Numbered from the stretch's first letter, positions 28,412 through 37,845 are shown. The stretch: DNA of 64,000 bases from Roseimicrobium sp. ORNL1 (GCF_011044495.1 NZ_CP049143.1:2790001-2854000); one strand, 5' to 3'. Notes: generated by a model not told the origin, from the sequence alone. Made by a program: numbers and translations.

Positions 28412-28912
28412 ATGAGACGTCGAACAGCCGTGCTCTCTGCGCTCACAGGTCTGGCATACGCAGCTGCCAGTGCAACGAAGGTAACAGCGGCGGAGGAGGG
28501 CTCCGCGGAAAATCCGGAATTGGAAAAGGTCAAGGCTCTGCTAAAAGCTCACGATGACGCTTTCAAAGCCCACGATCTCGAAGGGGTGCTCAAGACCTTC
28601 GCCAAGAAGTCTGCTGTCATGGGCACTGGTCCGGGGGAAATCTGGCACGGACCGGAAGAGCTGAAAGATGCTTACACCCACTTCTTCGAAACCTTCGACA
28701 AGGGGTCCCAGGAACTCGAACACCAGTACCAGTTCGGCGGTGTCACCGGAGAAACGGCCTGGTTCATGACCAGTGGCAATGTAACAGGCAAGTCGAAAGG
28801 CGAAGCCGTCGCATTCCCCCTGAATGTCTCCATCACCGCGGGCAAGGAGGGTGGGGAGTGGAAGATCTTCTCCCTTCATTTCTCCACGTTCGCGAGCAAC
28901 GACGCCAAATAA
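28412..28912 (+). CDS. Exported SnoaL/DUF4440-like protein
   Basis: 166 residues from the ATG at 28412, chosen because it gives a clean signal peptide (MRRRTAVLSALTGLAYAAASATKVTA-AEE) and drops 52 unlikely residues. The mature part has the NTF2-like pattern: helix KVKALLKAHDDAFKAHDLEGVLKTFAKKSAVMGTGPGEIWHGPEELKDAY, then strands WFMTSGNVTGKSKGE and WKIFSLHFSTF. NTF2-like folds bind small hydrophobic ligands or act as subunits. It ends 24 bp before the putative RiPP precursor gene, close enough to share a transcript, so it may be an export or binding factor of that system; this link is only positional. Confidence 0.8.
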   Translation: MRRRTAVLSALTGLAYAAASATKVTAAEEGSAENPELEKVKALLKAHDDAFKAHDLEGVLKTFAKKSAVMGTGPGEIWHGPEELKDAYTHFFETFDKGSQELEHQYQFGGVTGETAWFMTSGNVTGKSKGEAVAFPLNVSITAGKEGGEWKIFSLHFSTFASNDAK

Positions 28913-28923
28913 TCAACCCTTCC

Positions 28924-28930
28924 AGGAGGT
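28924..28930 (+). promoter_or_regulatory. Strong Shine-Dalgarno sequence of the WxNR precursor gene
   Basis: AGGAGGT lies 6 bp upstream of the ATG at 28937. It is a near-perfect anti-16S match where most genes in this window have weak or no such site, consistent with high-level synthesis of a small precursor. Confidence 0.85.
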
Positions 28931-28936
28931 ACGGCC

Positions 28937-29287
28937 ATGAATGAAGAGACTTCTGGCAAGGACATGAATGAGGAGGAAGGCGGACCGGATGGCGAGAACA
29001 TGGGGCGCAGGAACTGCCTGCAAGCCATGGGCCGCTGGTCGGCGGCCGCCATCGCGGCCTCTGCTGGCGCGGTGTGGCTGGGGAGTGCGCGACCTGCCCG
29101 AGGGGCGAGTATCTGGGTGAACCGTCGCCCCGGCGGCGGCGGTTGGATCAACCGCCCTGGAGGCTGGATCAATCGTCCGGGGTGGATCAACCGTCCTGGA
29201 GGCTGGATCAATCGTCGCCCTGGTGGCGGGTGGATCAACCGGCGCGGTCCGCGAGGTAGGGCAAACAGTTGGGTGAATCGTTGGTAA
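28937..29287 (+). CDS. Putative RiPP precursor with Tat leader and seven W-(V/I)-N-R motifs
   Basis: 116 residues. Residues 1-23 are acidic (MNEETSGKDMNEEEGGPDGE), then GRRNCLQAMGRWS and a hydrophobic stretch ending ARPARGA form a twin-arginine-type signal. From residue 59 the protein is only W, I/V, N, R, P and G: motifs W-x-N-R begin at Trp 60, 70, 77, 83, 90, 99 and 112, separated by RPGG/PG/RPGGG spacers, with a terminal Trp116. Aromatic-x-Asn is a known substrate pattern of three-residue-cyclophane radical SAM enzymes (for example XncB) and short Gly-rich repeats recall GrrA of the GRRM system. A radical SAM/SPASM gene follows 2 kb downstream on the same strand. I infer Trp-Asn crosslinking in the cytoplasm, then Tat export. 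Confidence 0.75.
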   Translation: MNEETSGKDMNEEEGGPDGENMGRRNCLQAMGRWSAAAIAASAGAVWLGSARPARGASIWVNRRPGGGGWINRPGGWINRPGWINRPGGWINRRPGGGWINRRGPRGRANSWVNRW

Positions 29288-29379
29288 GTGCTGTTTGGTG
29301 CTTGGTATTCGGTAGTTGGGGTTGGTATACAAAAAAAACCGAAGCCGGATTTGGTGGTCCGGTGAAGGCAGCGACGCGC

Positions 29380-30462
29380 ATGCGTGGAGAGCGAGGAGAC
29401 CTGCAAAGGGATGTCATTGCCATCTGGCCTGTCCAGACGGCTCCTCACTCCACGGGCGCGAACCTGCGGCAGGATGATTCGCAGGGACATGAGCACGAGT
29501 CTGAGCATGAGCATGAGCATGAGCATGAGCATGAGCATGAGCATGAGCAAGGGCCCGAACCTTGGGTGGCGCGTGTAGAGAGCGCGGAAGAGTTGCTGGC
29601 TCTGCTGGATGCTCCGCCTCCCGGGCTGGAGTGGATTGAGGTAGCGAGCCTGTTGGAGGACCTGGCGCTTTGGAGGTCAGTCGGACAAAAAGGTGATGCC
29701 ACCAGTATGGATGTCGTGATGCAGGACCCGGCGGCGGAGTTCAGCCGTCTCTACCGCCTCGTGGATGTCACCTCTACCCGATCTGTCCGCGTGACTGTGC
29801 CGGTGCGACCAGGATTTCTAAAGGCGCTGAGGCTGGCCGCATCCATCGGTCTGGCTGTGCGCCTGCTGCCTGGACAGCCCGACAAGGCTGGCCTGGCGGA
29901 GCTGGACGAGGCGCTGTCCTTCTACCTCTACGATCCCCTGCTGGATGCGCCCGTGGAGTTTTTCCACTCGGTGTTGTCCTACTTCCACGGATACCCCTGC
30001 AGCGATCTCTGGGCCCTGCTGCAGGAGGACCCGGGTGCCTTCCCACGGTACGATGAAAAGGGCCAGGTGCGCATGCCGCGCTCGGCAGCGTTCTTTTCTG
30101 AAATGGATACCATGGCCACTCCGGCCAATTTTGTGGAGCGGCATGTGCAGCACCTGCTCGACTCCGGTGCCGAGTGTGCCCTGTGCCCATGGCTGGGCAT
30201 CTGCCAGGGCTACTTCAAGTGGCCGGATGAGAACTACTCGTGTGCCGCTGGTGTCATCCCCCTGTTTGAGCGGTTGAAGCAAACGGCCGAGGAAATGCAG
30301 GAGGCACTGGCGGCCAGCGGAGAACAGGGGTGGGGGAGGGAGGCCGGGCAGAAGCAAGAGCAGGAGCAAGAGCAGGAGCAAGAGCAAGAGCAAGAGCAAG
30401 AGCAAGAGCAAGAATATGCGGCGGTGGCGGGGACGCAGGGTGACAGACCCGTGTCAGGTTAA
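29380..30462 (+). CDS. SPASM-only (pseudo-radical-SAM) partner protein of the WxNR locus
   Basis: About 360 residues from the ATG at 29380; the frame is open to 29269, but those residues are encoded by repetitive spacer DNA. After a His-Glu dipeptide run (about residues 36-57) comes an alpha/beta region (PWVARVESAEELLALLDAPP; SVRVTVPVRPGFLKALRLAASIGLAVRLLPGQPD) resembling the last strands of a radical SAM barrel. Then comes a Cys motif C266-x2-C269-x5-C275-x12-C288, as in half of a SPASM domain. No CxxxCxxC is present, so it cannot bind the SAM cluster. A Gln-Glu run precedes the C terminus. Position between precursor and maturase suggests peptide binding or an auxiliary Fe-S role. Family not recognised. 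Confidence 0.7.
   Translation: MRGERGDLQRDVIAIWPVQTAPHSTGANLRQDDSQGHEHESEHEHEHEHEHEHEHEQGPEPWVARVESAEELLALLDAPPPGLEWIEVASLLEDLALWRSVGQKGDATSMDVVMQDPAAEFSRLYRLVDVTSTRSVRVTVPVRPGFLKALRLAASIGLAVRLLPGQPDKAGLAELDEALSFYLYDPLLDAPVEFFHSVLSYFHGYPCSDLWALLQEDPGAFPRYDEKGQVRMPRSAAFFSEMDTMATPANFVERHVQHLLDSGAECALCPWLGICQGYFKWPDENYSCAAGVIPLFERLKQTAEEMQEALAASGEQGWGREAGQKQEQEQEQEQEQEQEQEQEQEYAAVAGTQGDRPVSG
29488..29548 (+). repeat. Hexanucleotide repeat GAGCAT encoding (His-Glu)n
   Basis: About nine near-perfect copies of GAGCAT/CATGAG encode a HEHEHE run near the N terminus of the SPASM-only protein. The unit length keeps the frame when copy number changes. A His-Glu run could bind metal ions. Confidence 0.85.
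30352..30414 (+). repeat. Hexanucleotide repeat GAGCAA/G encoding (Gln-Glu)n
   Basis: Roughly ten copies of GAGCAA or GAGCAG encode a Q-E dipeptide run close to the C terminus of the SPASM-only protein. With the His-Glu run it makes both ends of the protein low-complexity. Confidence 0.85.
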
Positions 30463-30529
30463 CATTGAGAAGAATCACTCATGAAACGTCTCGTGACTGA
30501 CACACGCCATGGCGGCGGGACACGATCCC

Positions 30530-30915
30530 GGGGCGCACCACCTTGCGCGAAGCGCCTTGGAGTGCGTGTGCGAAGCACCGCTTTGGCGGGAAATTTTCCT
30601 CCCCAAGGCTCGGGGGCACTCCTGCCCATACGCATTAACCTAAACGAGAGCGTGCCGAAGCCTCCGCTGGGCAAGCACGTGTCTTTCGCTGTGGACTATG
30701 AGACACAGTCGAAGCAGTTCCGCGTACTACGCCCTTCAAGGCAAACGCCCTTCCACCAAAGAGGCGGTAGGGATGCGCTCCTGCGCGTCCGACTTCAGGC
30801 GGGCGGAGGTGGTGTGGAACTGCGGCGCGAAACGGCCTCGCCACGCGGCATCCCCCTCCGCCTCCGCCCACTATCTACGGACGCGCAGGAGCGCATCCCT
30901 ACCGTCCTTTTTTGT
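30530..30915. repeat. Palindromic repeats between partner gene and radical SAM gene
   Basis: The gap 30463-31349 has an open frame (30481-31353), but it is built of repeats. 30536-30592 matches 4930-4985. GGTAGGGATGCGCTCCTGCGC (30767-30787) is mirrored by GCGCAGGAGCGCATCCCTACC (30882-30902) with a CGGGCGGAGG / CCTCCGCC pair inside; the same family recurs at 37600-37845. I see no real gene here. Confidence 0.75.
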
Positions 30916-31113
30916 GGAGGGGCGTTAAGATGCAAAGTCAATGGTGCCTCAGGGGCTCGAGAGTGTGTTCGTTTCGACGACAAACTCGCAGCTATTGTTC
31001 CCTCCGGCACAAATAAAATCCTCAGGTTAATGCTTATGGCACTCCTGCCCCCATTCTCCGCGCAGCTTCCTGATCTCTCACTTCCACATCACCCCCAATC
31101 TCGCCCGCAGTCG

Positions 31114-31236
31114 TGCCTGCACTCGCACTCGCAGCTGCACTCGCAGCCGCACTCGCAGCCGCACTCGCAGCCGCACTCGCAGCCGCACTCGCAGCCGCAC
31201 TCGCAGCCGCAGTCGCACCCACACTCGCACTCGCAC
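31114..31236 (+). repeat. 12-bp minisatellite (CACTCGCAGCCG)n
   Basis: About seven tandem copies of CACTCGCAGCCG, flanked by degenerate CACTCGCA repeats on both sides, lie some 110 bp upstream of the radical SAM start codon. Copy-number change here could alter the leader of that gene. A short CCCTGGGT / ACCCAGGG mirror pair follows at 31240-31300. Confidence 0.85.
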
Positions 31237-31349
31237 CCTGAAAGGGTGCAGGAGCCCAGCCCAGGGTTAGCGAGCCTAAGCGAGCGACACCCTGGGTACG
31301 CCGCCCAACATCCCTCCGACCCAGAACTCCACCCCATCCCCCTGATGCC

Positions 31350-32555
31350 ATGAGCGACCGCGTCTTCAGCGTCATCCTCCTCCCGACGTCCGAGTGCAAC
31401 GTCGCGTGTGACTACTGCTTTGAGCACAAGGAAAAGCACCGCCTCTCCCGGCTCATGGTGCCCCTGCTCACCAAGCGCCTGCTCGAGCACATGAAGCACG
31501 GCGGCTATGAGGAGTGCGAGATCTACTGGCAGGGTGGGGAGGCCATGCTCATGGGGCCGCAATGGTTTGCCGATACCGGGGCCCACATGGCCCGCGCCGC
31601 GCACGAGGCGGGCAAGACCTTCACGCACTACCTCCAGACCAATCTCATCAGCTACTCCTCCGCGTGGAAGGAGGTCATCCTCGGCCTCTTTCAGGGCGAG
31701 CTGGGTACCTCCATGGACTACCCGAATCCGCACCGGAAGCTCTTCAGCGGCAGTGCGGAGGGTTACACAGACATCTGGACCAAACGACTGAAGGAGGCCC
31801 AGCGCGACGGCATAGAAATAGGCGTCATCGCTGTGCTCCACCAGGGCAGCATCGACATCGGCGCGGAGGCCTTCTACCGCTACTACACGGAGGAGCTCGG
31901 GCTGGACAACTTCCAGGTGAACACACCCTTCCCCGGAGGACCTGCGAACGAGGTCGAGGGCCAGTTCCGCCTGGACAACCGGGAGCTCGCCGCCTTCCTC
32001 GTGGAGTTGTTCGACGTGTGGATGGAGCGCGGCTTTCACTCTGGTGTGAAGCTCGGACCCTTCGATGCGCTCATGGACCATTTCCAGGGACAGGCCGCGC
32101 GCCTGCCCTGCATCTGGAAGGAGAACTGCTCGAACCAGTTTATCTCTGTTGACTCAAAGGGCACGGTGGCCCAGTGCGACTGCTGGGTCACCAGCTACCC
32201 AGAGTACTTCTTCGGGAACATCTTCCAGGAGCCCAGCCTCACCCGCATGCTGGAGACCAGCCCCGCGCGGCGCGCCTTCGTCGAGCGCCCCGGCAGGCTC
32301 GTGGAGGATGAGGATTGCCTGGAGTGCCGCTACCTCTCCATCTGCCACGGCGGCTGCCCCGTGCGCGCCTACAGCGCCACCGGCAGTCTTTTGAAGAAGG
32401 ACCCCTACTGCGAGGTGTACAAGGCCGTCTTCCACACGGCTGAGACACATGCGCAGAAACTTTTGCGAAGAAGGAAGTCATCAGCTCCACCAGATCGCGT
32501 CCAGCCGGTTCTCCCGTCCTTGGGCGGAGCGCTTGCTACCAGCCGGCGGGTGTAG
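31350..32555 (+). CDS. Radical SAM/SPASM peptide maturase
   Basis: 401 residues. The radical SAM cluster motif C16-x3-C20-x2-C23 (ECNVACDYCFEH) is followed by the GGE-type motif WQGGEAMLM, a complete barrel and a full SPASM domain: C254, C260, C276, C278, then C323-x2-C326-x5-C332-x3-C336-x17-C354, enough ligands for two auxiliary [4Fe-4S] clusters. This architecture (GrrM, XncB, FxsB, anSME relatives) is used by maturases that crosslink or epimerise ribosomal peptides, or by sulfatase maturases. No sulfatase is in the window, whereas a W-x-N-R repeat peptide lies just upstream, so I favour three-residue cyclophane formation. The last about 30 residues (KLLRRRKSSAPPDR...) are basic and unstructured. 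Confidence 0.88.
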   Translation: MSDRVFSVILLPTSECNVACDYCFEHKEKHRLSRLMVPLLTKRLLEHMKHGGYEECEIYWQGGEAMLMGPQWFADTGAHMARAAHEAGKTFTHYLQTNLISYSSAWKEVILGLFQGELGTSMDYPNPHRKLFSGSAEGYTDIWTKRLKEAQRDGIEIGVIAVLHQGSIDIGAEAFYRYYTEELGLDNFQVNTPFPGGPANEVEGQFRLDNRELAAFLVELFDVWMERGFHSGVKLGPFDALMDHFQGQAARLPCIWKENCSNQFISVDSKGTVAQCDCWVTSYPEYFFGNIFQEPSLTRMLETSPARRAFVERPGRLVEDEDCLECRYLSICHGGCPVRAYSATGSLLKKDPYCEVYKAVFHTAETHAQKLLRRRKSSAPPDRVQPVLPSLGGALATSRRV

Positions 32556-32993: not shown

Positions 32994-33452
32994 ATGAGCG
33001 CCGACTTTTCGACACCGGAACTCCCTGCCAAGGGTATCATCGAACCGCTCGGCGACGACGATCGCCTGCTGCTGAGTAGCTATGGCGAATTCCTCCCGGT
33101 GCATGAGCGCCAGGTGCTCATTGAGGAAGGCCACCAGCAGAACTCCCTGTACTACGTCATCAGCGGCACGCTGCATGCCACCACCACCCGCAGTGGTCGC
33201 CCGGTGTTGCTCGGCCGCATCGGACCGGGGGAGACCATCGGTGAGATCAATATCTTCCACCCCGGCCTGGCCAGCGCCACCGTGACCGCCATTGAGTTTG
33301 CCCAGATCTGGCGCATCGACCGCCAGAGCCTGGAGGACTTCATGAACGTGAGCCCGCTGCCCGCCTCCCACCTGCTCATCGGCATCTCCAGCACGCTGAG
33401 CCGCCGTCTCCGCGAGACGAACGACAAGGTGGCGATGATGCACCAGATCTAA
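32994..33452 (+). CDS. Cyclic nucleotide-binding-domain protein without a DNA-binding domain
   Basis: 152 residues that form one cNMP-binding jelly roll: FLPVHERQVLIEEGHQQNSLYYVISGTL, then GRIGPGETIGEINIFHPGLASATVTAIEFAQIWRIDRQSLEDF and a C-terminal helix. The phosphate-binding cassette reads GETIGEINIFHPGLASAT, a diverged version of the CRP-type GExxGE...RxAT, with no Arg before the AT. It may therefore bind another ligand or none. No helix-turn-helix, kinase or channel domain is attached. It starts 438 bp after the radical SAM gene, with a mirrored repeat between, so co-regulation is doubtful. Confidence 0.85.
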   Translation: MSADFSTPELPAKGIIEPLGDDDRLLLSSYGEFLPVHERQVLIEEGHQQNSLYYVISGTLHATTTRSGRPVLLGRIGPGETIGEINIFHPGLASATVTAIEFAQIWRIDRQSLEDFMNVSPLPASHLLIGISSTLSRRLRETNDKVAMMHQI

Positions 33453-37599: not shown

Positions 37600-37845
37600 C
37601 CCCTCCGCCCACAATCTACGGACGCGCAGGAGCGCATCCCTACCGCCCCTTTTGGGAGAGACGTTTGCCCCGAAGAGCAGGGTGAACGAAGTCGCTCTCC
37701 ATTCACATGGTGAGCTCACCTAAAAGATTGCCCGGAGAGCCTGAGGTACCACTTGCCTGAACCGAAAGCGCCCCTCCCAAAAAATGGACGGTAGGGATGC
37801 GCTCCTGCGCGTCCGAATCTCGCGGGCGGAGGCGGTGGGCATCCA
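37600..37845. repeat. Mirror repeat of the GGACGCGCAGGAGCGCATCC family
   Basis: CTACGGACGCGCAGGAGCGC-ATCCCTACCG (37615-37645), with CCTCCGCCC upstream, is mirrored by CGGTAGGGATGCGCTCCTGC-GCGTCC (37790-37816) with GGGCGGAGG downstream. The same family lies at 30767-30902. No gene is visible in 37518-37872. Confidence 0.8.

Follow-up and report, generated by a model that had tools for sequence, protein, structure and literature searches.

Characterised enzymes of triceptide biosynthesis crosslink W-x-N triplets. OscB bonds Trp C7 with the C-beta of Asn, and XncB links Trp C6 with the C-beta of Asn or Arg at i,i+2; the enzyme of dynobactin biosynthesis forms a bond from Trp C6 to Asn C-beta over a spacing of i,i+3 (PMC11002830). 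Cyanobacterial systems making single or multiple cyclophanes are known (PMC10304443), and a substrate with several motifs is by itself not new. Here we describe a gene cassette that resembles these systems, encoded in a 64,000-nucleotide stretch of the genome of Roseimicrobium sp. ORNL1 (GCF_011044495.1 NZ_CP049143.1:2790001-2854000; hereafter the window, with coordinates counted from its first nucleotide). The cassette would direct the synthesis of a ribosomally synthesised and post-translationally modified peptide (RiPP). We consider it likely that a radical S-adenosylmethionine (SAM)/SPASM maturase and a partner protein, which we call mid, crosslink the W-x-N triplets of a precursor exported by the twin-arginine translocation (Tat) pathway. 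The best prediction from sequence is that the cassette belongs with the cyclophane-forming radical SAM RiPPs, as a variant. Like GrrA/GrrM (that is, OscA/OscB), it combines a Gly-rich repeat precursor containing W-x-N, a radical SAM maturase with a SPASM domain and an exported peptide. An earlier note on this DNA had described a system of two genes, precursor and maturase. Both genes are real, but the note overlooked mid (29380-30462), which lies inside the interval that it covered, and a SnoaL-like gene (28412-28912). Neither twin-arginine RiPPs nor the cassette itself turned up in the open-access papers searched, although mention in the triceptide surveys of Nguyen 2020 and Sugiyama 2022 is possible.

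The precursor gene (28937-29287, + strand) encodes 116 amino acids and is preceded by a Shine-Dalgarno sequence, AGGAGG (28924-28929), located 7 nt 5′ of the ATG codon. The leader consists of an acidic n-region, the Tat motif RRNCLQAMGRWS (residues 24-35, with the twin arginines at 24-25) and a hydrophobic stretch. Cleavage is predicted around residues 54-58, and the core that follows contains seven W-[VI]-N-R motifs. The arginine pair, the Shine-Dalgarno sequence and the seven motifs are thus present as the earlier note had them; its claim that the core is built exclusively from W, I/V, N, R, P and G was wrong, as Ala and Ser also occur. We collected 22 homologous precursors, sharing the Tat motif and the W-x-N repeats and found nearly always in the same gene context. 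The pattern RRxxL...[GR][KR]WS plus a hydrophobic stretch is present in all 23 leaders, with RR and L invariant, and in most precursors an A-x-A-like site lies 0-4 residues ahead of the first W-x-N. At the sequence level these proteins have the RR-x-x-L motif, the hydrophobic stretch and, mostly, the A-x-A-like cleavage site of Tat substrates; TatC is encoded by the window genome.

The cores define the repeated unit. Asn occupies position i+2 after 154 of the 182 core Trp residues in the 23 precursors, which places an aromatic-x-residue triplet of the triceptide kind in these cores 154 times; units number from 4 to 17 per precursor. Ten different residues (V, I, Y, F, L, N, H, A, G and S) were seen at i+1, and of the 154 motifs 109 (71%) have Arg at i+3, the others having G, A, W, L, N, T or Q there. 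Since i+1 is free and Arg merely favoured, the unit is W-x-N and not W-x-N-R; of the W-(V/I)-N-R motif in the earlier note, W-x-N is the constant part. A rigid Trp/Asn pair with ten residues allowed at i+1 and eight at i+3 is what one expects of an enzyme's substrate unit.

The maturase gene (31350-32555, + strand) encodes 401 amino acids with a radical SAM cluster motif, C16xxxC20xxC23, and a full set of SPASM cysteines: C254, C260, C276, C323, C326, C332, C336 and C354. The protein scores 56.8 bits against the SPASM model TIGR04085 (cut-off 27). Two auxiliary cluster sites (AuxI and AuxII) were assigned through alignment with the anaerobic sulfatase maturase anSMEcpe, an assignment that also draws on the known structure of that enzyme. 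Thirteen positions, namely the three radical SAM cluster cysteines, the AuxI and AuxII cysteines, D277 and C278, are invariant in 15 family members. The earlier description of a maturase with CxxxCxxC and a complete SPASM set on the strand of the precursor holds.

When the maturase was used as a query against 84,980 species genomes, nine relatives were found, in Verrucomicrobiota, Acidobacteria and one Methylococcaceae genome. The order SnoaL-precursor-mid-maturase, on one strand, recurs in each of their loci for which enough upstream DNA was available, and searches of further genomes yielded more loci of this type. The Methylococcaceae locus contains two SnoaL-precursor pairs. Within the taxonomic order of the host, nine of the 240 genomes sampled for the maturase have it, as have eight of the 190 sampled for the precursor. 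All eight precursor genomes have the maturase, and the ninth maturase genome proved to have a precursor too; mid is present in every positive genome, and no sampled genome has precursor or maturase alone. The distribution is patchy, since mid occurs in merely two of 388 genomes drawn from the host phylum. In two further gammaproteobacteria the cassette is split: one contig has a precursor and mid, and a different contig has the maturase and a second precursor, of 10 or 17 W-x-N units. That the genes occur together without being neighbours speaks for a functional connection. The co-occurrence of W-x-N precursors with the maturase that the earlier note anticipated for other genomes was thus found, complete in the sampled order and extending to separate contigs, as suits a RiPP-type precursor/maturase pair. 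One additional locus (L038, the second in its genome, that of L003) appears to hold a decaying cassette: the SnoaL-like gene and the precursor are intact, mid is broken by stops and frame breaks, and no maturase lies within the 11.5 kb fetched.

The cassette genes were also compared with those of a sister species (L031). The ratio of nonsynonymous to synonymous substitution (dN/dS) is about 0.08 for the maturase, 0.12 for the SnoaL-like gene, 0.19 for mid and 0.24 for the precursor, values that indicate constraint on all four genes. Together with the motif and context shared by the 22 homologues, they argue that the precursor is not a chance reading frame. Judged by sequence, then, the cassette is real and conserved, and none of the family libraries searched has a model that covers it.

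These data bear on the possibility that the repeat protein is an unmodified, Tat-secreted structural or adhesive protein rich in Gly, Trp and Arg, with the maturase and mid modifying another target, such as the SnoaL-like protein. Its composition and the variation from 4 to 17 repeats do look structural, and the SnoaL gene belongs to most cassettes. Yet the two genomes with split cassettes combine precursor with maturase and precursor with mid in fetched loci that have no SnoaL homologue; the precursor, and not SnoaL, is therefore the constant partner. Moreover, Trp/Asn spacing is rigid within the triplet while the surroundings vary. We regard this explanation as very unlikely.

The earlier note had grouped the maturase with XncB, GrrM or FxsB. 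This was not borne out: scores against these models range from 41 to 76 bits with cut-offs of 310-450, and the closest relatives are of the anaerobic sulfatase maturase, DynA and DarE types. In fact none of the full-length NCBIfam maturase families searched matches the window maturase above cut-off. The top-scoring model is the anaerobic sulfatase maturase TIGR03942 (142.2 bits, cut-off 349.45), followed by DynA (136.7, cut-off 450), DarW (116, below cut-off), DarE (98.6, cut-off 650) and GrrM/OscB TIGR04261 (75.7, cut-off 310); YhhB (65.4), AmcB (58.6), FxsB (55.8) and XyeB/XncB (41.5) have cut-offs of 370-450. Across seven maturase-family members scanned, DynA gave the best E-value among NCBIfam models. 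A tree built from 31 sequences groups the 15 family members in a single clade (support 100/99) and separates them from five sequences of the anaerobic sulfatase maturase type, DarE, one GrrM and plasmid-borne radical SAM proteins; clustering with the sulfatase maturases, which would have counted against the earlier note, is not seen in it. The tree included no DynA sequence, and its deep branches are long, so that we place no trust in their order. The nearest radical SAM proteins outside the family, on plasmids of Pseudomonas, Vibrio and Photobacterium (L065, L066 and L068), adjoin type II secretion/prepilin genes, and each of these plasmids carries two or three radical SAM/SPASM genes consecutively or nearly so.

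Could the cassette simply be a GrrA/GrrM triceptide system? Its Gly-rich repeat core is of the same kind, and six of eight precursors show a weak, sub-threshold similarity to the GrrA/OscA1 model TIGR04260 (best E 0.074), against which the window peptide scores 9.5 bits (cut-off 31). However, the maturase lies in its own clade, far under the TIGR04261 cut-off, and keeps the AuxI cysteines along with those of AuxII, whereas the single GrrM compared, the sole annotated one among the plasmid records listed, has AuxII cysteines alone. The Tat leader placed directly ahead of the core and the extra mid and SnoaL genes also set the cassette apart, and we rate identity with GrrA/GrrM the least probable of the explanations considered. 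Upstream of grrM on the Phaeobacter plasmid (L062), an open reading frame annotated as a hypothetical protein (2139-2483) has a Trp/Asn-rich C-terminus (WLNSWSNWNNWSNWYK...) and is a probable GrrA.

The dynobactin and darobactin maturases are closer in profile scores, and dynobactin contains a Trp-Asn C-C bond, though at i,i+3. In the DarE compared, all but one of the SPASM cysteines are kept, the exception being aligned as Met. The present precursor differs from those of these systems in being a predicted Tat substrate with multiple repeats, and its neighbourhood contains no conserved gene for a dedicated transporter. The anaerobic sulfatase maturase anSMEcpe (4k36) is the best match in the PDB by sequence, sharing both auxiliary sites and the Asp that follows the third SPASM cysteine; in contrast to such enzymes, the family forms a separate clade, and its cassette lacks a sulfatase and includes a substrate-like repeat peptide.

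These resemblances raise the question of whether the maturase acts on W-x-N by some other chemistry, giving an indole N1 or ether bond, a Trp-Arg bond, oxidation of Asn C-beta in the style of sulfatase maturases, or epimerisation. The best profile scores are those of sulfatase maturase, DynA, DarW and DarE, whose reactions differ; the Asp after C276 (D277) is common to sulfatase maturases and DarE and missing in the GrrM compared; and Arg follows 71% of the motifs. On the other hand, the element that stays constant is Trp plus an Asn at i+2, in keeping with the Trp-x-Asn C-C cyclophane already described (PMC11002830), and Arg at i+3 can be replaced by seven other residues. We find a different chemistry unlikely. 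Trp-Asn cyclophanes are the best prediction because W-x-N is what the characterised triceptide enzymes OscB and XncB crosslink; the earlier note's statement that known enzymes crosslink aromatic-x-Asn motifs is sound in this respect (PMC11002830).

The product of the gene between precursor and maturase, mid (29380-30462, + strand), is a protein of 360 amino acids with a predicted degenerate (pseudo) radical SAM/SPASM fold. Its family is present in 17 other loci; homologues at the same position rule out a chance open reading frame. Searches with mid gave no Pfam or NCBIfam family above cut-off and no notable match by sequence in the PDB, the family search listing weak HxsC/SPASM matches. The AlphaFold (AF2) model of mid has a mean predicted local distance difference test (pLDDT) score of 80.8 (the maturase model averages 64.8, its SPASM part being too poor for use). 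In VIA-align, the top seven rows for mid are all radical SAM/SPASM enzymes (Z 10.4-13.2 over some 250-265 residues), the best fold relatives being ChlB (9gmc/9gm3), anSMEcpe and TigE at 10-12% identity. Foldseek returned nothing under E 0.001 for the same model, TIM-barrel aldolases heading its list, and hhalign against the maturase gave a weak match (probability 31%, E 0.0005) in which the SPASM-like end was aligned. None of the 18 mid proteins has CxxxCxxC; each keeps C-x2-C-x5-C-x-GYFK-x-P and then a fourth Cys (CALCPWLGICQGYFKWPDENYSC in the window), matching the four AuxII ligands. Compared with ChlB, anSMEcpe and TigE, mid thus retains AuxII-type cysteines and lacks both the radical SAM cluster motif and the AuxI cysteines. 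On the structural alignment, the SPASM-like cysteine motif and the weak HxsC/SPASM matches, mid is best read as a dead homologue of radical SAM enzymes that keeps one cluster site. It may bind the leader, transfer electrons or act as a scaffold. No plasmid-borne copy of mid was found. The window gene contains two hexanucleotide arrays, encoding (HE)n near the N-terminus (29488-29549) and (EQ)n near the C-terminus (30353-30413); both are absent from other mid proteins, and changes in length by whole units would keep the frame.

We propose that the twin-arginine signal peptide of the precursor doubles as its leader. In the cytoplasm the maturase, aided by mid, would move along the core and crosslink each W-x-N triplet once internally, most probably through a C-C bond from the Trp indole to Asn C-beta; each three-residue cyclophane, up to seven in all, would lower the mass by 2 Da. 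Tat would then export the rigid product, and signal peptidase would cut at the A-x-A-like site just ahead of the first Trp, so that under this proposal the cassette could do without a protease or transporter of its own. A Tat signal peptide as leader, with signal peptidase as leader protease, is the simplest reading of the sequences. The secreted SnoaL-like protein would act in that compartment too, perhaps as a binder or carrier of the product. Several points weigh against this scheme. Because the maturase lies below all cyclophane-family cut-offs and its top model is that of sulfatase maturases, the reaction is deduced from the substrate motif. Some core Trp residues lack Asn at i+2 (WGPRR, WGGGWGGG), and no RiPP recognition element (RRE) domain was identified. 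Finally, an insertion of about 1 kb (30312-31349), absent from the sister species, where mid and the maturase gene overlap by ATGA, parts these two genes in the window genome and could have altered expression.

A more elaborate form of the scheme, which we put forward tentatively and hold to be doubtful, is a two-subunit cyclophane synthase, in which a radical SAM/SPASM enzyme with two auxiliary clusters acts with an obligate dead homologue, which has one AuxII-type cluster and recognises the Tat signal peptide as leader. If so, Tat export would be a quality check passing solely the crosslinked, rigid peptide. The cassette adds a radical SAM/SPASM maturase clade beyond the NCBIfam models, whose natural substrates, with between 4 and 17 W-x-N units, make it useful for work on iterative crosslinking, and it gives a name to an unclassified partner family resembling a pseudo-radical-SAM protein in which one cluster site is left. 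It further suggests that a Tat signal peptide can be a RiPP leader, signal peptidase replacing a dedicated leader protease, in phyla poorly mined for peptide natural products.

The first gene of the cassette (28412-28912, + strand) encodes a SnoaL-like protein of the NTF2 fold, matching SnoaL_3 (PF13474) at 47.5 bits, above cut-off, and having a Tat-like N-terminal signal (MRRR...). At least 15 other loci have a homologue immediately 5′ of the precursor gene; the homologues of Acidobacteria have a lipoprotein-like signal. A scan for sigma-70 promoters found none, and no further neighbour (transporter, protease or immunity gene) recurs across the loci. The lineage-specific insertion comprises the EQ-repeat end of mid, GC-rich repeats resembling repetitive extragenic palindromes, seen again near 37600-37840, and a tandem array of a 12-bp unit (8.8 copies, 31124-31229). 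Downstream of the cassette lies a gene for a protein with a cyclic-nucleotide-binding domain (32994-33452; PF00027, 69.1 bits), which the other loci lack.

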